64,000 nt of DNA from Bacteroidota bacterium (GTDB lineage Bacteria; Bacteroidota; Bacteroidia; AKYH767-A; OLB10): NCBI GenBank assembly GCA_023251535.1, contig JAHEYP010000001.1, forward strand, positions 1 through 64,000. Reading direction: 5' to 3'. Positions 45,443 through 55,326 of this stretch are shown here, piece by piece (the stretch's first letter is position 1; every line of letters begins with the position of its first letter). Under the pieces are notes generated by a model, which saw nothing but the letters and a program-made list of their open reading frames with translations, ran no database searches and had not been told where the DNA came from. A program made the translations under genes and the position numbers.

Positions 45443-45599
45443 ATCCGCCAAAATTAAAAAATCTGCTGAGCCTACCTAAAATTCGGGAAATAACTTTTAC
45501 AAGCCCATTTCGGGCATTTTGCTAACAACGAAGTTCAGTTTTTTTAATAAAAAGCCTTGAAACGGGGCTATAATCGATCTCAGATAGGCGTCGGTTGCT

Positions 45600-45607
45600 T
45601 AACTTTG
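45600..45607 (+). promoter_or_regulatory. -7 promoter box of purL (TAACTTTG)
   Basis: Exact TAnnTTTG, 20 bp before the ATG at 45628. It lies inside the longer possible frame from 45595, ruling that start out. Confidence 0.6.
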
Positions 45608-45627
45608 CAGCGAAAATAAACGCTCAC

Positions 45628-47865
45628 ATGACTACCGGAACTGAAGAATTAAGCAACGTAGAAACCGCGAAGAAACTGGGATTACTACCTGAAGAATTCG
45701 AAAAAATCAAGCAAATCCTGGGCCGCACGCCCAATTTTACCGAGCTCAGCATCTATTCGGTGATGTGGTCGGAGCATTGCTCGTACAAAAATTCGATTGT
45801 TTGGTTAAAGACCCTTCCAAAAGACGGCCCTCATATGTTGGCCAAGGCTGGAGAAGAAAATGCGGGATTGGTAGCGATTGGCGACGGCTTGGCTTGCGCC
45901 TTCAAAATCGAGTCGCATAACCACCCTTCAGCGATTGAGCCATACCAAGGGGCAGCGACGGGTGTCGGCGGAATTAACCGCGATATTTTTACCATGGGAG
46001 CTCGTCCTATTGCTCAATTAAACTCTTTACGCTTCGGAAATCCAGATTCAGCACGCACAAAATGGCTGATGAAAGGAGTGGTGAAAGGTATCGGCAACTA
46101 CGGTAATGCTTTTGGCATCCCAACCGTTGGTGGCGAGGTGTTTTTTGATGAATCATTCAACGTAAATATTTTGGTGAATGCCATGTCGGTAGGAATCGTG
46201 AAAGAAGGCGAAACGGCTTCAGCGATTTCTTACGGAGTGGGTAACCCGGTATATATTGTGGGATCGGCGACGGGTAAAGACGGAATTCATGGTGCAACTT
46301 TCGCATCTGGCGACTTACACGAAGACTCACACGAAGACCTTCCATCGGTACAAGTGGGAGATCCTTTTATGGAGAAATTACTCCTCGAAGCATCGCTTGA
46401 AGTGATTAAGACTGGAGCTGTTATCGGAATGCAAGATATGGGAGCGGCAGGGATCATCTGTTCTACCAGTGAAATGTCGGCGAAAGGAAAGCACGGTATG
46501 AATATCTACCTCGAAAAGGCACCTACTCGTCAGGCGAATATGAAAGGATGGGAAATCCTTTTGAGCGAAAGCCAAGAGCGTATGTTGGTGGTAGTTGAAA
46601 AAGGACGTGAAGCAGAAGTAGAAGCCATCTTCGAGAAATGGGATTTAAATTGCCAACAGATTGGAGAAGTAACCGAAGGTGATCGATTAAGATTCACGAT
46701 GAACGGAGAACTTTTAGCTGATGTACCTGCAGAATCGTTGGTATTAGGTGGTGGTGCTCCGATTTACAATAGAGAATATTCAGAACCTGCATATATCGCT
46801 AAGAACAAAGCCTTCAAAATTGATTCGGTAAAACAACCTAGCGATTTGAAAGCGGTGATGATGCACCTGACAACACATCCGAATATAGCCTCTAAAAAAT
46901 GGGTATATACGCAGTATGACTCAATGGTAGGTACTATCAACATGACAACAAATGCTCCGGCAGATGCTGCGATTGTAGATGTACGAAATACGAAGAAAGC
47001 TTTAGCGCTTACTGTTGACTGTAACTCACGCTATGTATATGCTGATGCGGAAGCAGGCTGTGCGATTGCTGTAGCGGAAGCAGCGAGAAATATTGTTTGT
47101 GCGGGCGGACATCCATCGGCAGTAACCAACTGTTTGAATTTCGGAAATCCTTATAACCCTGAAGTATATTGGCAATTTGTTCATGCCATCAAAGGGATGA
47201 GTGCTGCATGTTTACGCTTTGAGACACCGGTAACGGGAGGAAATGTAAGTTTCTATAATCAATCGAAAAACGAGCAAGGAGAAGTGCCTGTATTCCCTAC
47301 TCCAACCATCGGTATGGTGGGAATTATTCCTGACAAGAAAAAACGCATGAGCCTTAACTTCAAACAAGAAGGTGATGTTATTTTCATGTTAGGATCATCG
47401 CGTGACGACATTAACTCATCAGAATATTTATACTCGTTCCACGGAGTGAAAAACTCCCCTGCTCCATTTATGGATTTAGAAGAAGAGTATGCATTACAAC
47501 AAGTGATTAAGCAATTAATTAAAGACGGATTAATTGAAAGTGCGCATGACGTATCTGACGGAGGATTATTCATCACATTATTGGAATCAGGAATGCCAAA
47601 TGGCTTAGGATTCAGAATTGAAACGGATGAAGAAATTAGAAAAGATGCATTCTTATTCGGCGAATCACAAAGCCGTGTAGTGGTGAGTGTAAGTGCCGAG
47701 AAGTTAGATGCATTTGTTGAGATGATGGCCGACACCGACGTAGACTTCGTTAACCTCGGAGAAGTAACAGCAGACAATATTATTATCGACGATCAAACTT
47801 ACGGATCTATTATCGAATACAAAGAAGCCTATGACAATGCGATTGGCAAACTGATGGAAGCATAA
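45628..47865 (+). CDS. purL: Phosphoribosylformylglycinamidine synthase subunit PurL
   Basis: A 745-residue small-type PurL, the synthetase subunit that makes FGAM from FGAR and ammonia in purine synthesis; it needs PurQ and PurS, not present here. Hallmarks are [13 protein letters not shown] with catalytic His50, [50 protein letters not shown], and the second-half [28 protein letters not shown] and [17 protein letters not shown]. It starts at the ATG at 45628. It ends at a strong terminator. Confidence 0.97.
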
Positions 47866-47920: not shown

Positions 47921-48324
47921 GTTTTTGGAGGGGTGGTTGATAAAAAGAATATACTAAATGTTTAAGAAATTGGATTTCTTAAAAACATCAAAGTGCGGCG
48001 GCGGTTATTGAGTTGGTCATCGAGCGGTGGTTATTGAGCGGAGTCGAAATAAGTCGAGATGGAGTCGAAATAAGTCGAGATGTGGTCGATATAAGTCGAG
48101 ATGGGGCTGACGCCTCACCTTTCTCAATTAAATTTTTCTCGAAAAACTACCTTAATCTTGGTCCCTATTTTCAGAATGGGGTACAGCAAGTTCCCTCCCT
48201 ATTTAAAATTACAAAAAAACCTCAAGATAGTCGGGAAATAAATGCTTACAAACGGTTAAGTGCATACCGATTTCTTTTTTTAGTGATTTATATATACATT
48301 TGGTAAATATTGGTCACTTTAAGG
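47921..48324. other. Gene-free leader of the duplicated unit, copy 1
   Basis: Holds GAGCGGAGTCGA-type repeats (48000-48102) and then about 220 bp (48103-48324) that is almost identical to 50670-50891 upstream of the second copy. An ORF spans it but simply follows the 21-bp repeat in frame and ends before the CTD gene. The conserved part probably contains the promoter. Confidence 0.5.
48040..48102. repeat. Three 21-bp direct repeats (GGAGTCGAAATAAGTCGAGAT)
   Basis: Units at 48040-48060, 48061-48081 and a variant 48082-48102. The matching position of copy 2 has only two units (50628-50648, 50649-50669). Confidence 0.85.
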
Positions 48325-48687
48325 ATGCACTTTATGAAGGATGGGAGTTTGTTGAATATTGAACTGGAATACGATGATGACTCGAATTGTGGTAGTTCTT
48401 CCCGCATTAGTACTTTTTATGATAAGTTAAATCAATTAGTGACTGAATTTACCATTAGTCCAAATCCAACGCAATTGCACTTTACTTTAAGAGGTAGTTC
48501 GATTTCATTTGTTCATCAATTTTTATTAACAGACTTAAATGGAAAAGAAATCTTCAAGTATTTAGTTGATGAGAAAATAACTGAAAAAACATTTGATCTT
48601 CCAAATCTTAGTGATGGTGTGTACAACGCAAAAATAATTCTTGAAAACGGGAAAAGTGTTAATAAGAAAGTTGTAATTCTAAATTAA
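48325..48687 (+). CDS. Orphan T9SS sorting-domain protein, copy 1
   Basis: About 120 residues from the ATG at 48325 (a TTG at 48310 is also in frame). It is almost entirely a type A sorting domain: FTISPNPTQLHFTLRG, HQFLLTDLNGKEIFKY, LSDGVYNAKIILENGKSVNKKVVIL. It is preceded only by about 40 residues (MHFMKDGSLLNIELEYDDDSNCGSSS). There is no signal peptide and no cargo domain, so as annotated it cannot reach the T9SS. It ends 1 bp before the next ATG. Differences from copy 2 near 48348-48362 are mostly synonymous in this frame, suggesting it has been translated. It could be a relic of a larger gene. Confidence 0.65.
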   Translation: MHFMKDGSLLNIELEYDDDSNCGSSSRISTFYDKLNQLVTEFTISPNPTQLHFTLRGSSISFVHQFLLTDLNGKEIFKYLVDEKITEKTFDLPNLSDGVYNAKIILENGKSVNKKVVILN

Positions 48688-48688
48688 C

Positions 48689-50206
48689 ATGCGCGCAACA
48701 TTTAAAATTATATTCTCTTTATTATTGCTATTGCAATTTAATGAGGAAATTAATGCTCAAGGTAAAGCACATCAATTTTTATTTGGTTATAATAATCAAC
48801 CAGACCCATTAACAACTGCTTTACGTGGTAGGATGTTGTTTGATACAAGTAATTTAAATGTTATTCCAGATAGCTTCTCAATGGCATTTAGGCAAACCCA
48901 AGGAAATATTTCAAATGAGCAAGGGAATTTACTTTTCGCCAGTAACGGTGTTTATATAATGAATGCGACAGGGAGTATTATGTTAAATGGAGGAGGGTTG
49001 AATCCTGGCCCTGCAGTTAGTGGTTTAGGCACTTATGGTTTGCCGATTCCTTTTGGAAATATTGTTCTTCCATTCCCTGGAGATACAAATAAATATATAT
49101 TATTTCATCATTCCTTCGATTATGTGGGCAATCTTGCTTCATATGCCTTATTTATGACAGTTGTTGACATGACCTTAGATAATGGGAAAGGTGCAGTTAT
49201 TAGTAAAAATGTTGTTGTTAATAGTGATTCCTGCGATTGGGGTATTGCGGCTTGTCAACATGCCAATGGTAGAGATTGGTGGATAACAATTCCAAAATTT
49301 AAAAATGACACACTTATAACGTTATTGTGTTCTCCTTCTGGGGTGATTGAAACCAACCGACAGAGTTTTGGTTTCCCATCTACTATTGGGAATGCTGGAT
49401 GTCCGATGTTCTCACCTGATGGTAATAAGTTTTCAATTGTTACCTCAGTTCCTTATGGAAGTGTTTATAAACATGATGTGAGGCTTTATGATTTTGATCG
49501 ATGTAGTGGGATTTTCTCTAATGCTAAAATTGATTCCATTGACAATCAAGTTGGGTTTGGTGCTACATTCTCACCCAACGGAAAATATTTGTATGCTATA
49601 TCGTTAGGTGATATTTATCAATATCAAACTGATACATTTGATTTTCATGGGTCGAAAAAAAAGGTGGCAACGTACGATGGATTTGTTTCATTAAGCCAGA
49701 CCATCTTTTGGTCGGCTTTTTTAGCAGCTAACGGTAAAATATATATATCGTCTGGCGGCCCTGTAATCGACCTGACTTGTATTGAATATCCTAATAATCC
49801 TGATACACTATGCTTTGTGAATCAGCATTCGGTTCATTTACCAGCATGGTGTAATAGAGGCAGTGTCAATCACCCAAATTATTATTTAGGGCGATTGCAG
49901 GGTAGTCCGTGTGATACTTTATCTTGGGTTGGGGTAGAAGAAAATGCTCTTCATGATTTTAAAATAGGGTTAAGTCCAAATCCAAGTACAGGGAGTTTTA
50001 AAATAATTTATTTGTTGCCTTCCAACGAAAGTGGAGAATTGCTCATTTATAATTTAATGGGACAAATAATTTATCGCCAAACTCTTCCTGAATGGACTAC
50101 ACTTCAAAATATTCAGTTGCCTAATGTCCCATCAGGTATTTATCAATGTACTATCAAATGCAAATCCGGTTCAGCCACTAAGAAGTTGATGGTGGTTGGG
50201 GAATAG
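48689..50206 (+). CDS. T9SS cargo protein, 505 residues, copy 1
   Basis: A secreted protein with signal peptide residues 1-23 (FKIIFSLLLLLQFNEEINA, then Q). The body has propeller-like strands (GNLLFASNGVYIMNATG, MFSPDGNKFSIVTS, FSPNGKYLYAISLGDIYQYQ, FLAANGKIYISSGG), like a WD40/TolB-type propeller. The C-terminal sorting domain is IGLSPNPSTGSFKIIY, GELLIYNLMGQIIYRQ, SGIYQCTIKCKSGSATKKLMVV. About 85 percent of residues match copy 2 by eye, and the last 75 are identical. It is coupled to the orphan sorting-domain ORF. Confidence 0.83.
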   Translation: MRATFKIIFSLLLLLQFNEEINAQGKAHQFLFGYNNQPDPLTTALRGRMLFDTSNLNVIPDSFSMAFRQTQGNISNEQGNLLFASNGVYIMNATGSIMLNGGGLNPGPAVSGLGTYGLPIPFGNIVLPFPGDTNKYILFHHSFDYVGNLASYALFMTVVDMTLDNGKGAVISKNVVVNSDSCDWGIAACQHANGRDWWITIPKFKNDTLITLLCSPSGVIETNRQSFGFPSTIGNAGCPMFSPDGNKFSIVTSVPYGSVYKHDVRLYDFDRCSGIFSNAKIDSIDNQVGFGATFSPNGKYLYAISLGDIYQYQTDTFDFHGSKKKVATYDGFVSLSQTIFWSAFLAANGKIYISSGGPVIDLTCIEYPNNPDTLCFVNQHSVHLPAWCNRGSVNHPNYYLGRLQGSPCDTLSWVGVEENALHDFKIGLSPNPSTGSFKIIYLLPSNESGELLIYNLMGQIIYRQTLPEWTTLQNIQLPNVPSGIYQCTIKCKSGSATKKLMVVGE

Positions 50207-50289
50207 TTTATGGTTTACGGTTTACGGTTTACGGTTTACGGTTTACGGTTTACGGTTTACGGTTTACGGTTTACGGTTTACGGTTTACG
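50206..50289. repeat. Heptamer tandem array (GTTTACG)11
   Basis: One degenerate GTTTATG (50206-50212) then eleven perfect GTTTACG units (50213-50289), beginning at the last codon of the 505-codon gene. The matching place after copy 2 has GTTTATC, GTTTATG and two GTTTACG. Confidence 0.95.
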
Positions 50290-50627
50290 GTTCGCGAAGC
50301 GAGTAGCGAGATTATTTTAGGATAGAAATAAGGGTGGAGGAAAGGAATTGGTTCGAAGTTCGATGTTCTAAGTTTCTCAATGCGGATTGCGAAATCTTTT
50401 TATGGTTCGAGGCCTGCCGTGACTTGTGCTTTTCGCACAACGTCATCGGTTCATGGCTTGCCCTGAAGTGAGCTTTTTCAGCTCTACTTCAGGGGTTCGC
50501 AATACGGATAGCGAAATCTTTTTATGATTCGTGGTTGTCGAGCTGGTCATTGAGCGAAGTCGAAATGGAGTCGAGACATGGTCATGGTTATTGAGCTTGT
50601 CGAAATATCGAGCGGCGGTCATCGAGC
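50290..50627. repeat. Dispersed intergenic repeats between the two copies
   Basis: Contains TTCGCGAAGCGAGTAGCGA, GCGAAATCTTTTTATG (twice), GAAGTTCGATGTTC and GAGCGAAGTCGAAATGG. These recur at 52800-53085 and in part at 32826. No gene. Confidence 0.75.
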
Positions 50628-50891
50628 GGAGTCGAAATAAGTCGAGATGTGGTCGATATAAGTCGAGATGGGGCTGACGCCTCACCTTTCTCAATTAAAT
50701 TTTTCTCGAAAAACTACCTTAATCTTGGTCCCTATTTTCAGAATGGGGTACAGCAAGTTCCCTCCCTATTTAAAATTACAAAAAAACCTCAAGATAGTCG
50801 GGAAATAAATGCTTACAAACGGTTAAGTGCTAGACGATTTCTTTTTTTAGTGATTTATATATACATTTGGTAAATATTGGTCACTTTAAGG
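50628..50891. other. Gene-free leader of the duplicated unit, copy 2
   Basis: Nearly identical to 48061-48324; one visible cluster of changes (GCTAGACGATT versus GCATACCGATT near 50829). Likely contains the promoter of the second ORF pair. Confidence 0.55.
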
Positions 50892-51254
50892 ATGCACTTT
50901 ATGAAGGATGGGAGATTATTAAACATTGAACTGGAATACGATGATGACTCGAATTGTGGTAGTTCTTCCCGCATTAGTACTTTTTATGATAAGTTAAATC
51001 AATTAGTGACTGAATTTACCATTAGTCCAAATCCAACGCAATTTCACTTTACATTAAGAGGCAGTTCTAGTTCATTTATTCATCAGATTGTATTAATCGA
51101 CTTAAATGGAAAAGAAATCATTAAGTATTTAGTTGATGAGAAATTTACTGAAAGAAATTTTAATCTTCCAAATCTTAGTGATGGTGTTTACAACGCAAAA
51201 ATAATTCTTAAAAACAATAAAAGTGTTAATAAGAAAGTTGTAATTCTCAATTAG
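50892..51254 (+). CDS. Orphan T9SS sorting-domain protein, copy 2
   Basis: Second copy of the stand-alone sorting-domain ORF, same length. The N-terminal part MHFMKDGRLLNIELEYDDDS differs from copy 1 by one residue (Ser to Arg), while the sorting domain differs at about 14 positions (for example SSFIHQIVLIDLNGKEIIKY). No signal peptide. It ends 1 bp before the following ATG, exactly as in copy 1. Confidence 0.65.
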   Translation: MHFMKDGRLLNIELEYDDDSNCGSSSRISTFYDKLNQLVTEFTISPNPTQFHFTLRGSSSSFIHQIVLIDLNGKEIIKYLVDEKFTERNFNLPNLSDGVYNAKIILKNNKSVNKKVVILN

Positions 51255-51255
51255 C

Positions 51256-52773
51256 ATGAGATCAATATTTAATATTATATTCTCTTTATTGTTGCTGATG
51301 CAATTTAATGAGGAAATTAAAGCTCAAGGCAAGGCACATCAGTTTTTATTTGGCTGGAGTAGTCAATTGGATTCTTATACGACTTCGTTACGTGGTAGAA
51401 TACTATTTGATTCAAGTAATTTAAATATAATACCGGATAGTTTTGGGATGCCATTTAGGCAAGCTCAAGGGAATATATCTGATGAGCATGGCAATTTGCT
51501 CTTTGCAAGTAATGGTGTTTATATAATGAATGCAACCGGAAATATAATGTTAAACGGAGGTGCATTAAATCCAGGGCCAGCAGTAACAGGTTTAGGTTCT
51601 ATAGGTATGCCAATGCCATTTAGTAATATTGTTCTACCATTCCCTGGTGACACAAATAAATATATATTGTTTCACCATTCCGAAGATTATTTGGGGAATC
51701 TTGCGTCGTATGCCTTGTTTATGACTGTTGTTGATATGACCTTAGATAATGGAAAAGGTGCTGTAATAAGTAAAAATGTTGTAGTTAACAGTGATTCATG
51801 CGATTGGGGAATTGCTGCTTGTCAACACGCAAATGGAAGAGATTGGTGGATTACAATTCCTAAATATAAAAGCGATACCTTAATAACATTACTTTGTGCT
51901 CCTTATGGAGTAGTTGAGACAAATCGGCAAAGTTTCGGATTTCCTTCAACTTTGGGGAATGTTGGATGTCCTATGTTTTCACCCAATGGTTCAAAGTTTT
52001 CAATTACCAGTGTAAAGCCTTATGGTAGTGCCTATAATCATGACGTAAGGCTATACGATTTTGATCGCTGTGGTGGAGTTTTCTCTAATGCTAAAATTGA
52101 TTCGATTGACAATAAAGTTGGCGGAGGTGCAATATTTTCTTCAAATGGGAAATATATTTATACAATTTCAGTAAATGATATTTACCAGTATCAAACTGAC
52201 ACTATTGATTTTCATGGGTCTAAGAAAAAAGTAGCCACATATGATGGATTTGTTTCATTAGCTCCAACAAACTTCTGGTCATCATTTTTAGCAGCTAATG
52301 GAAAAATATATATATCATCTTATGGTTTTGTTGTAGATTTAACTTGTATTGAATATCCAAATAATCCTGATACTCTTTGTTTTGTGAATCAGCATTCTGT
52401 CCATTTGCCAGCATGGTGTTTTAGGGGAAGTGTCAATCACCCAAATTATTATTTAGGGCGATTGCAAGGTAGTCCGTGTGATACTTTGTCGTGGGTTGGG
52501 GTAGAAGAAAATAATCTTCATGATTTTAAAATAGGGTTAAGTCCAAATCCAAGTACAGGGAGCTTTAAAATAATTTATTTGTTGCCTTCCAACGAAAGTG
52601 GAGAATTGCTCATTTATAATTTAATGGGACAAATAATTTATCGCCAAACTCTTCCTGAATGGACTACACTTCAAAATATTCAGTTGCCTAATGTCCCATC
52701 AGGTATTTATCAATGTACTATCAAATGCAAATCCGGTTCAGCCACTAAGAAGTTGATGGTGGTTGGGGAATAG
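51256..52773 (+). CDS. T9SS cargo protein, 505 residues, copy 2
   Basis: Second copy of the secreted propeller-like protein, exactly the same length as copy 1. The signal peptide is conserved (FNIIFSLLLLMQFNEEIKA, then Q). Central differences include HSEDYLGNLASYAL versus HSFDYVGNLASYAL and MFSPNGSKFSITSVKPYGS versus MFSPDGNKFSIVTSVPYGS. All cysteines (SDSCDWGIAACQH, CIEYPNNPDTLC, SPCDTLSW) are retained. The sorting domain is identical to copy 1. An intact frame in both copies argues that both are used. Confidence 0.83.
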   Translation: MRSIFNIIFSLLLLMQFNEEIKAQGKAHQFLFGWSSQLDSYTTSLRGRILFDSSNLNIIPDSFGMPFRQAQGNISDEHGNLLFASNGVYIMNATGNIMLNGGALNPGPAVTGLGSIGMPMPFSNIVLPFPGDTNKYILFHHSEDYLGNLASYALFMTVVDMTLDNGKGAVISKNVVVNSDSCDWGIAACQHANGRDWWITIPKYKSDTLITLLCAPYGVVETNRQSFGFPSTLGNVGCPMFSPNGSKFSITSVKPYGSAYNHDVRLYDFDRCGGVFSNAKIDSIDNKVGGGAIFSSNGKYIYTISVNDIYQYQTDTIDFHGSKKKVATYDGFVSLAPTNFWSSFLAANGKIYISSYGFVVDLTCIEYPNNPDTLCFVNQHSVHLPAWCFRGSVNHPNYYLGRLQGSPCDTLSWVGVEENNLHDFKIGLSPNPSTGSFKIIYLLPSNESGELLIYNLMGQIIYRQTLPEWTTLQNIQLPNVPSGIYQCTIKCKSGSATKKLMVVGE

Positions 52774-53085
52774 TTTATCGTTTATGGTTTACGGTTTACG
52801 GTTCGCGAAGCGGGAGGCGAGATGTTTTTTGAATAGAAATAAGGGTGGAGGAAAGGAATTGGTTCGAGGTTCGAAGTTGGAAAAAAAGTTCTTGGCTTGC
52901 CATGCAGTGTGCTATTTCAGCTCTACTGCATGGTTCCTAGTTCTTAGTTCATAGTTCGCGAAGCGAGTAAAGAGATCTTCATAAGTTCTTTGGTCATCGA
53001 GCGGAGTCGAGATGGAGAAGCTCTATTGGGTTTACAGCTGTCCCTACGGGAATTCGCGAAGCGAGTAGCGAAATCTTTTTATGTT
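52774..53085. repeat. Dispersed repeat block after copy 2
   Basis: GTTTACG remnants, TTCGCGAAGCG (four variants), TAGTTCTTAGTTCATAGTTC, ATCGAGCGGAGTCGAGATGG, and GCGAAATCTTTTTATG. No gene; the ORF at 52763-52954 is made of repeats. The stretch 53086-53220 shows nothing recognisable. Confidence 0.75.
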
Positions 53086-53325: not shown

Positions 53326-55326
53326 ATGCATTTTTATCGCTTTTTTATTAAGAAAATATTTCTGTTAGTATTATTGTGTTCGCTTCATAGTGCTGCGAAT
53401 GCTCAGTATAATACATTATGGATTCCCGATACTTTATCAGGCACTACATTTAACTTAACAGTTCGTGATACGTTTCGTCAGGTTTTACCCGGACAACAAA
53501 CGATCGTTGGCGCCTTCAATCATTTTCCTACTTGGGGACCTACTCTATTCTGGAACAAAGGTGATTCGGTAAATATGTTTGTCACCAATAGCATGCTCGA
53601 CACTACAACGGTGCATTGGCATGGTATTCACCTTCCGGCCATAATGGATGGCGGTCCGCATCAAACAATTGCTCCGAATCAAACATGGAATCCGAAATTC
53701 AGAGTCAAGAACAATGCCGCCATGTATTGGTATCATCCGCATTTGCATATGATGACGCAAGCGCAGCTCGGTTTAGGTATCGGAGGATTAATCATTGTTC
53801 GTGATCCCGTTGAAGCAGCACTAGCATTACCGCGCAAATACGGAGTTGATGATATTCCATTGGTTTTAACAGATAGTCGCTTCGATAATTCTAATCAAAT
53901 TGTATTGTCGTCGTATGGAGATACCATGATGTGCAACTTTACATTAAATGCTCAATACACTATTCCCGCTCAAGTTGTAAGGTTACGAATATTAAACACT
54001 GCTTCAGAGCGATTTTATAATCTCGGCTTCAGCGATAACAGATCGTTTTCGGTTATTGGCACTGACGGAGGATTACTAAACGCACCTGTTTCACTTACAC
54101 GTAAATTATTAGCTCCTGGCGAGCGCGTTGAAATACTCGTGAACTGCACGGGGCAAAACGGAACATCGTTCGACCTAATGGCATATAACTCAGGAATGGC
54201 AACTGATTATCCCGGATGGCAACCAACGAACTATTCTGATGTTCGTTTTCGCAATGATTTAGGCGGAAGGAATTTCAATATTTTGCATCTCAATGTTGGT
54301 CCGCAGACAGCCAACCCTAAAACAACAATTCCTACTACATTAACCACAAATGTATTCCCCGACTCTACAACTTCAATAGCAACTCGAGCAATATCGATGG
54401 CTTTAGGAGGAAGTGCTTGTCCCCCAGGCTACCCCGACTGCTACCAACTAAACGCTACCAACTTCGACATGAATCGAATTGATTATCGTCCGTTGATTAA
54501 CAGCACTGAGATTTGGGAAATCACCAACAATAGCACACTCGCACATCCATTTCATATTCATGATGCGCAATTTAAAATTCTCACTGTTAACGGAGTGAAT
54601 GCACCTGCGGCAGACAGAGGATGGAAAGACGTTGTGGTAGTAAGAAGAAATTACAAAGTACGATTTGTAGTTAGCTTTCCTGACTATGCCGACAGCCTCC
54701 ACCCCTTCATGTATCATTGCCACATGGCACCGCATGAAGATGCAGGCATGATGGGACAATTTACGGTGATGCCAGAATGTGTGCCCACAATAACCACACT
54801 TACCCCAACAACATTAGGAGTAGGTGCATTGGCAACATTAAAAGGAACACATCTCAACAATATCACGAGTGTAAAATTCAACGCATTAACATCATCGTTC
54901 AGCGTAACTAGCGATACTACCATTAAAGCAACAGTACCAACAGGAGTAACTGCAGGAGTAATTACGGCGCAAAATAATTGCGGAACGGCAACTTCGCAAG
55001 CTTATACGGTAGTAGATTCTGCGAATGTCACCGTTAAATTTTTATTACAAGGTCTTTACGTAGCACCCGACAGTATGCGCAATGCGATGGGCATTTATGC
55101 CGATAGTGTAGAAGTTAGATTTTATGCGAAGACGGATGTAAATACTCCAGCGAAAATTATCAAAACAGTCGTTCGTACCAACGGACAGACCTTTTGCAAA
55201 CTACCAGCATCATTTATTGGAAGACAATACTACATCTGCATACGACACAGGAACTCTATTGAGACATGGAGTAAGACAGCAATGACACTGCGCAACGGGC
55301 TCACCTACGATTTCAGCAGACCATAA
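53326..55326 (+). CDS. Secreted multicopper oxidase with IPT/TIG domain
   Basis: A 666-residue exported oxidase. The signal peptide ends near residue 26 (LLCSLHSAANA). All four copper motifs are present: HWHGIHLPAIMDGGPHQ, YWYHPHLH, HPFHIHDAQF and YHCHMAPHEDAGMM (about 54711-54752). The last supplies type 1 Cys and His plus a Met axial ligand and the trinuclear His residues. An IPT/TIG-like domain follows (TITTLTPTTLGVGALATLKGTHL, 54787-55015). The C-terminal module (VKFLLQGLYVAPD...FIGRQYYICIRHRNSIETWS) is seen in other Bacteroidota secreted proteins. There is no obvious sorting domain. Substrate (metal ions or phenolics) unknown. Confidence 0.92.
   Translation: MHFYRFFIKKIFLLVLLCSLHSAANAQYNTLWIPDTLSGTTFNLTVRDTFRQVLPGQQTIVGAFNHFPTWGPTLFWNKGDSVNMFVTNSMLDTTTVHWHGIHLPAIMDGGPHQTIAPNQTWNPKFRVKNNAAMYWYHPHLHMMTQAQLGLGIGGLIIVRDPVEAALALPRKYGVDDIPLVLTDSRFDNSNQIVLSSYGDTMMCNFTLNAQYTIPAQVVRLRILNTASERFYNLGFSDNRSFSVIGTDGGLLNAPVSLTRKLLAPGERVEILVNCTGQNGTSFDLMAYNSGMATDYPGWQPTNYSDVRFRNDLGGRNFNILHLNVGPQTANPKTTIPTTLTTNVFPDSTTSIATRAISMALGGSACPPGYPDCYQLNATNFDMNRIDYRPLINSTEIWEITNNSTLAHPFHIHDAQFKILTVNGVNAPAADRGWKDVVVVRRNYKVRFVVSFPDYADSLHPFMYHCHMAPHEDAGMMGQFTVMPECVPTITTLTPTTLGVGALATLKGTHLNNITSVKFNALTSSFSVTSDTTIKATVPTGVTAGVITAQNNCGTATSQAYTVVDSANVTVKFLLQGLYVAPDSMRNAMGIYADSVEVRFYAKTDVNTPAKIIKTVVRTNGQTFCKLPASFIGRQYYICIRHRNSIETWSKTAMTLRNGLTYDFSRP

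Follow-up and report, generated by a model that had tools for sequence, protein, structure and literature searches.

A multi-locus family of predicted T9SS propeller proteins in which gene conversion and cassette exchange probably use the common leader and sorting tail as homology arms

Two tandem units between a purL-like gene and a multicopper oxidase gene

The window, i.e., the whole stretch of 64,000 nucleotides analysed in this study, belongs to genome G000 and contains two units, at 48,061–50,220 and 50,628–52,787, which match each other without gaps when shifted by exactly 2,567 bp. Each unit consists of a leader, a 120-codon frame (orfA) and a 505-codon frame (orfB), of which orfB starts one base past the orfA stop codon. 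The flanking genes were used for synteny with the sister species G003. The features of the region are as follows.

45,595–47,865, + strand: purL-like gene, left flank (Pfam AIRS/AIRS_C), 94.6% identical to G003 contig C405
48,040–48,104: imperfect 21-bp repeats at the 5' edge of leader copy 1
48,061–48,324, + strand: leader copy 1, stopping at the orfA start codon, 98.5% identical to copy 2
48,176–48,263, + strand: 88-bp conserved core of leader 1, a probable control region
48,295–48,302, + strand: TACATTTG box of copy 1, which resembles the Bacteroidota -7 promoter box TAnnTTTG (from the sequence and the leader alignment)
48,325–48,687, + strand: orfA copy 1, 120 amino acid residues, T9SS sorting domain (PF18962, E = 1.3e-8)
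48,689–50,206, + strand: orfB copy 1, 505 amino acid residues, with a signal-peptide-like start, a predicted propeller body and a T9SS type A tail
49,951–50,206, + strand: homogenised 3' tail segment of copy 1 (sorting domain), 99.6% identical to copy 2
50,206–50,292, + strand: GTTTACG heptamer array, 12.4 units past the copy 1 stop codon (Tandem repeat finder)
50,628–50,891, + strand: leader copy 2
50,743–50,830, + strand: 88-bp conserved core of leader 2
50,892–51,254, + strand: orfA copy 2 (PF18962, E = 2.5e-9)
51,256–52,773, + strand: orfB copy 2, matched by the sorting-domain profiles
52,518–52,773, + strand: homogenised 3' tail segment of copy 2
53,326–55,326, + strand: multicopper oxidase gene, right flank (Pfam Cu-oxidase); this flank is ~91% identical to G003 contig C114

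GTTTACG heptamers were also found directly after stop codons at 52,780–52,803 (3.4 units) and on contigs C45, C58 and C39, and the spacers carry dispersed GAGTCGAAATAAGTCGAGATG-type repeats.

The tail of orfB is a type A sorting domain of the type IX secretion system (T9SS), matched by TIGR04183 (E = 1e-12, 47.8 bits vs. a cut-off of 23) and PF18962 (43.5 bits vs. a cut-off of 27). Its N-terminus, inspected by eye, is hydrophobic with an AQG-type end, and is a helix in the structure model; no signal peptide was evident by eye in orfA. Similar to T9SS type A cargo (TIGR04183/PF18962), orfB combines a C-terminal sorting domain with a signal-peptide-like start. Different from such cargo in general, however, its body belongs to a predicted propeller family and its tail is homogenised between paralogues. 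The structure model, built from 25 family members, had a mean pLDDT of 80, and its best PDB matches were beta-propellers of the 6-phosphogluconolactonase type (4qrj, TM 0.58 by target length), which suggests a propeller fold for the orfB body and says nothing on its function. Nonsynonymous changes were fewer than synonymous ones in all 10 pairs of five orfA copies (p = 5e-3 to 7e-7). Thus, orfA, under purifying selection, seems to be kept as a protein.

An earlier note on this DNA had described the units as copies offset by 2,567 bp with near-identical ends and diverged middles, and identities calculated part by part confirmed this. The leaders were 98.5% identical over 273 bp and the orfA copies 91.8%, whereas the orfB copies were 80.8% identical over their first 1,250 bp and 99.6% over their last 256 bp. 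The note had staked its description on divergence being non-uniform, and it was: the orfB bodies differed at 153 of 255 synonymous sites and the tails at 1 of 51 (Fisher p = 1.6e-16), with dS of 1.1 and 0.02, respectively. Given this synonymous contrast, protein constraint does not explain the identity of the tails. Moreover, the longest identical run of the pair, 69 codons, extended up to the stop codon (permutation p = 0.0002).

Homogenised tails across a dispersed family

A profile of the orfB body gave 37 matches in G000, and members were found in 31 of the 34 genomes of the order. In addition, a scan of public genomes identified at least 539 confirmed stretches with the family body; the best 80 of these were all in records named as Bacteroidota. 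The paralogues have a putative signal peptide, a predicted propeller and a T9SS sorting tail. The search for further copies that the earlier note had proposed thus yielded about 37 paralogues, and the pattern concerns the whole family rather than the tandem pair. The leader-orfA-orfB layout occurs in five units of G000 (twice on C14, and on C11, C45 and C58). All five have a leader, a start codon and an open frame, none of them being a promoterless silent copy, so that a silent-cassette system of the pilE/pilS type was rejected from these five units.

The tails were alike well beyond the tandem pair. The tail of copy 1 was 98.0% identical to those on C45 and C58, while the bodies were 77–82% identical. 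The C45 and C58 bodies were saturated (dS 1.4), and yet the two genes ended in 110 identical codons (body vs. tail synonymous contrast, p = 9e-22). The same contrast was found in other subfamilies, namely for C34/C3, the C51 pair and C6/C14:192998. Furthermore, copy 2 and the C45 gene had an identical 39-codon run within their bodies (p = 0.0002), indicating that conversion is not limited to the ends. The pattern was also found in genomes G038, G008 and G015 and in several public MAGs; some gene pairs, and some MAGs in which few loci were examined, had no tail homogenisation.

Near-identical segments could have been merged or mis-joined by the assembler, which the earlier note had named as a refuting possibility. 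Several family members lie at contig ends (C9, C34, C49, C51, C1 and C6), so repeats do trouble assembly. However, both flanks of the window units were matched by the independent assembly of the sister species, and the tail identities were graded (90.6, 98.0 and 99.6%) rather than all-or-none. Moreover, in G038, a member of another family, three genes at 0.15, 1.25 and 1.57 Mb of a single 2.73-Mb contig, and thus 0.3–1.4 Mb apart, had the same tail pattern: the synonymous difference (ps) of one pair was 0.70 in the body and 0.08 in the tail, and another pair with a body ps of 0.79 had 174 bp of upstream DNA that was 97.7% identical. Such a pattern among genes far apart on one contig argues against misassembly, which we consider very unlikely. 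In a four-gene array of G008, ps was 0.62–0.80 for the bodies and 0.09–0.28 for the tails.

Selection alone, with a constrained leader and tail, a faster-evolving body and no recombination, would also give similar ends, and indeed conservation between species is strong for the leader core, and the tails are conserved at the protein level. Comparison of two G000 genes and three G003 genes of subfamily B contradicts it. Their bodies differed at ps 0.54–0.70 in every pair. Their tails, however, differed at ps 0.15–0.21 within a genome and 0.58–0.65 between genomes. Thus, the silent sites of tails from one subfamily agree within a genome and diverge between genomes, which tail constraint cannot produce. 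The body and tail trees were also in conflict: the two G000 tails formed a clade with support of 100/100, a grouping rejected by the bodies (AU p = 5e-40), and the pairing of C3 with C382 by the bodies was rejected by the tails (AU p = 1e-34). Together with the replacement of cargo at an orthologous site described below, these results leave selection alone highly improbable.

In subfamily E, the bodies of C20:55714 (L052) and G003 C66:408 (L113) differed at ps 0.10 and their tails at ps 0.56. The tail of the G003 gene matched that of another gene, so that its body and its tail have different nearest relatives. A gene on the same flank of this pair differed at ps 0.43; in comparison, the body value of 0.10 suggests a recent transfer of the body between species.

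Of the earlier claim of ongoing gene conversion at both ends, the part concerning the 3' end is supported by the synonymous identity of dispersed copies and by the grouping of tails by genome. The part concerning the 5' end needs modification, since the likeness of the leaders comes partly from probable constraint on their 88-bp core. In addition, conversion also enters the bodies.

Different cargo behind the same leader

Leader 1 had homologues at 9 further places in the genome. The leader was also found upstream of genes encoding proteins with only about 30% identity to orfB (C45:11140, C58:12258, C14:194566 and C6:1609). On C11, it precedes a 1,584-codon gene (L037, C11:83459-88213), whose product has a different N-terminal part fused to the propeller-plus-tail unit of the family. 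In addition, C14 and C45 have in common the spacer after the first orfB (94% identical over 348 bp) and a second leader, which are followed by different genes.

The loci were compared one by one between two closely related genomes, G000 and G003, both of which are draft assemblies. The impression from purL (94.6%) that the two species are very close is contradicted by the neighbouring genes, which differ at ps 0.24–0.69. Downstream of purL, G003 has the same leader and, behind it, a member of another subfamily that is only about 30% identical. Homology ends at the start codon: the alignment of the two leaders is intact through ATGAAGG and collapses immediately after it. The multicopper oxidase gene, which bounds the window locus on the right, lies on a second contig of G003, where a tail of that other subfamily precedes it. 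The G003 cargo is thus spread over two contigs, and its middle is on neither. As judged from these alignments, the flanks and the leader have been kept at the purL-oxidase site and the cargo has been replaced in G003.

Different members at the same locus in the two lineages were found not only at the purL-oxidase site but also at C6/C337 and C11/C203, where the flanks match (82–87%) and the cargo does not correspond. At C58/C183, G003 has ~11 kb with other T9SS genes between the leader and the family gene, and the orfA-orfB unit of C58 is absent. The family gene at this locus has a body ps of 0.51 and could be a true orthologue, so that only the 11 kb were counted as a change. Similarly, a body ps of ~0.55 at C51/C166 was not taken as replacement, as it is ordinary among neighbouring genes with ps of 0.24–0.69. 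The exchange of cargo cassettes between conserved flanks that the earlier note had offered as a second explanation is therefore seen at purL and also at other loci of the sister species that have the leader. The leaders of three G003 loci clustered together (99/97), and the flanks of two of these loci have their orthologues at different G000 loci. Inside G000, a test for leaders having been mixed between cargo types gave no significant result (AU p = 0.19).

One T9SS gene of G003 (L107, C183:6422-16518) is very large and lies in two frames of 1,695 and 1,670 codons, and it is intact, with 3,343 codons, at C337; the split is either a sequencing error or a real break.

The leader core, the proposed mechanism and related systems

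The 88-bp core was present in 18 of 19 aligned leaders, with 10 copies in G000 and 9 in G003, and had no convincing match in the other 59 genomes searched. It was found only upstream of family genes, and its copies were ~85–98% identical between species, compared with differences at 24–69% of the synonymous sites in neighbouring genes. The TACATTTG box, to which we assign a putative promoter role from its sequence, lies downstream of the core in most leaders. The core is thus probably a control region under constraint, and it may help recombination merely through its length and likeness. A structured RNA in the leader was rejected: Rfam gave no credible match, and the consensus fold of the core reached only z = -2.1 vs. 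shuffled columns, which is weak evidence.

Alternatively, the core could be the recombination site of a dedicated site-specific or mobile system, in which an integrase-like enzyme swaps the cassettes. Its presence in nearly all leaders fits this possibility, as does the end of homology just past the core in two orthologous pairs (C58/C183 and C6/C337). At other loci, however, homology extends beyond the core and ends at the -7 box or at the start codon. Moreover, the core occurs only before family genes, the window unit has no terminal inverted repeats, and no recombinase was recognised by eye in the neighbouring frames. We therefore give a dedicated system very little credence. For lack of inverted ends, the leader was also rejected as the end of a mobile element; a transposon- or integron-like cassette was rejected on the same ground and on the inspection of the neighbouring frames.

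The tails are homogenised at synonymous sites, tails and leaders cluster by genome, and cargo has been replaced with homology ending in the leader. The reading that we favour, with considerable confidence, is a multi-locus T9SS propeller family in which the leader and the sorting tail are the homology arms that gene conversion and cassette exchange rely on. Recombination with other loci or with incoming DNA would start in the similar ends and stop where similarity fails, probably driven by ordinary RecA-type recombination. The ends would be copied from gene to gene, and the stretch between the arms would be replaced by a body from another locus or genome. Such exchange would be tolerated if the tail serves for nothing but sorting and the leader for nothing but control, and the displayed propellers would be what is varied. 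In Porphyromonas, the T9SS tail is reported to be an export signal and to be cleaved off (PMC4804311), so that its exchange there should do little harm; the same may apply to the proteins of this study. Given that the dN/dS of the bodies was near 0.1, exchange appears to reshuffle old bodies that already work, and not to generate new variants through point changes.

Families with fixed ends and a variable middle that are diversified by conversion are mostly known from pathogens under immune attack. In Neisseria opa and pilE/pilS, conserved ends guide the recombination of a variable middle; the opa genes are complete and dispersed, and the pilS cassettes are silent archives. The present family is similar in its conserved ends and variable middle, and different from pilS in that its five units keep their leader, start codon and open frame. 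The closest parallel is found in the bab/hop genes of Helicobacter pylori, where the bab genes have nearly identical ends around a divergent middle, undergo gene conversion and can occupy one another's locus (PMC4552749). Both systems consist of dispersed paralogues at several loci with alike ends, a divergent middle, conversion and locus swaps, and near-identical ends with diverged middles were indeed found among the paralogues of this study. However, the two are not homologous, the present family has about 37 members and a T9SS sorting tail as its 3' end, and no CT-repeat phase switch was seen in it. In Porphyromonas gingivalis, adhesin modules are rearranged and surface-protein alleles exchanged (gingipain/HagA; PMC5266723); there too, recombination and allelic exchange diversify the T9SS surface proteins of a member of Bacteroidota. 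Different from the modular adhesin domains in a few large genes of P. gingivalis, whole bodies lie here between leader and tail at many loci. The literature searched on T9SS with gene conversion, antigenic variation or concerted evolution did not describe this pattern, nor did it contain an account of a T9SS propeller family with a common leader and tail.

The pattern reported here, which becomes visible when two sister species are compared, belongs to a widespread family of largely uncultured Bacteroidota, and its constant 3' end is a secretion tag. The two ends look like adapters for swapping surface proteins. Tentatively, the promoter leader and the T9SS tail could even be a general adapter pair across Bacteroidota for exchanging whole surface-protein bodies between loci and species. 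In that case, environmental bacteria that have no known immune host would possess, in the propeller family, a widespread system for diversifying their surface; we regard this broader possibility as somewhat doubtful. If general, the pattern offers a way to recognise T9SS surface proteins under turnover pressure, and it raises the question of whether that pressure comes from phage, predators or particle surfaces. It also calls for caution with the trees, orthology calls and assemblies of T9SS cargo genes, in any of which several histories may be mixed within a single gene.

Finally, small tail-only frames or larger T9SS proteins were found directly before orfB homologues at other loci, and their stop and start codons often overlap; the large C24 protein, translated in a wrong frame, was left out of account. 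Besides 48,325–48,687 of the window, tail-only frames precede propeller genes in L047 (5,230–5,640 and 7,129–7,539), L048, L044 (67,843–68,457) and L110 (1,766–2,218). They are perhaps remnants of larger partner genes, although orfA is under purifying selection. Several of them have a QCP.GG..VY.AR..YNDD..C segment in common.
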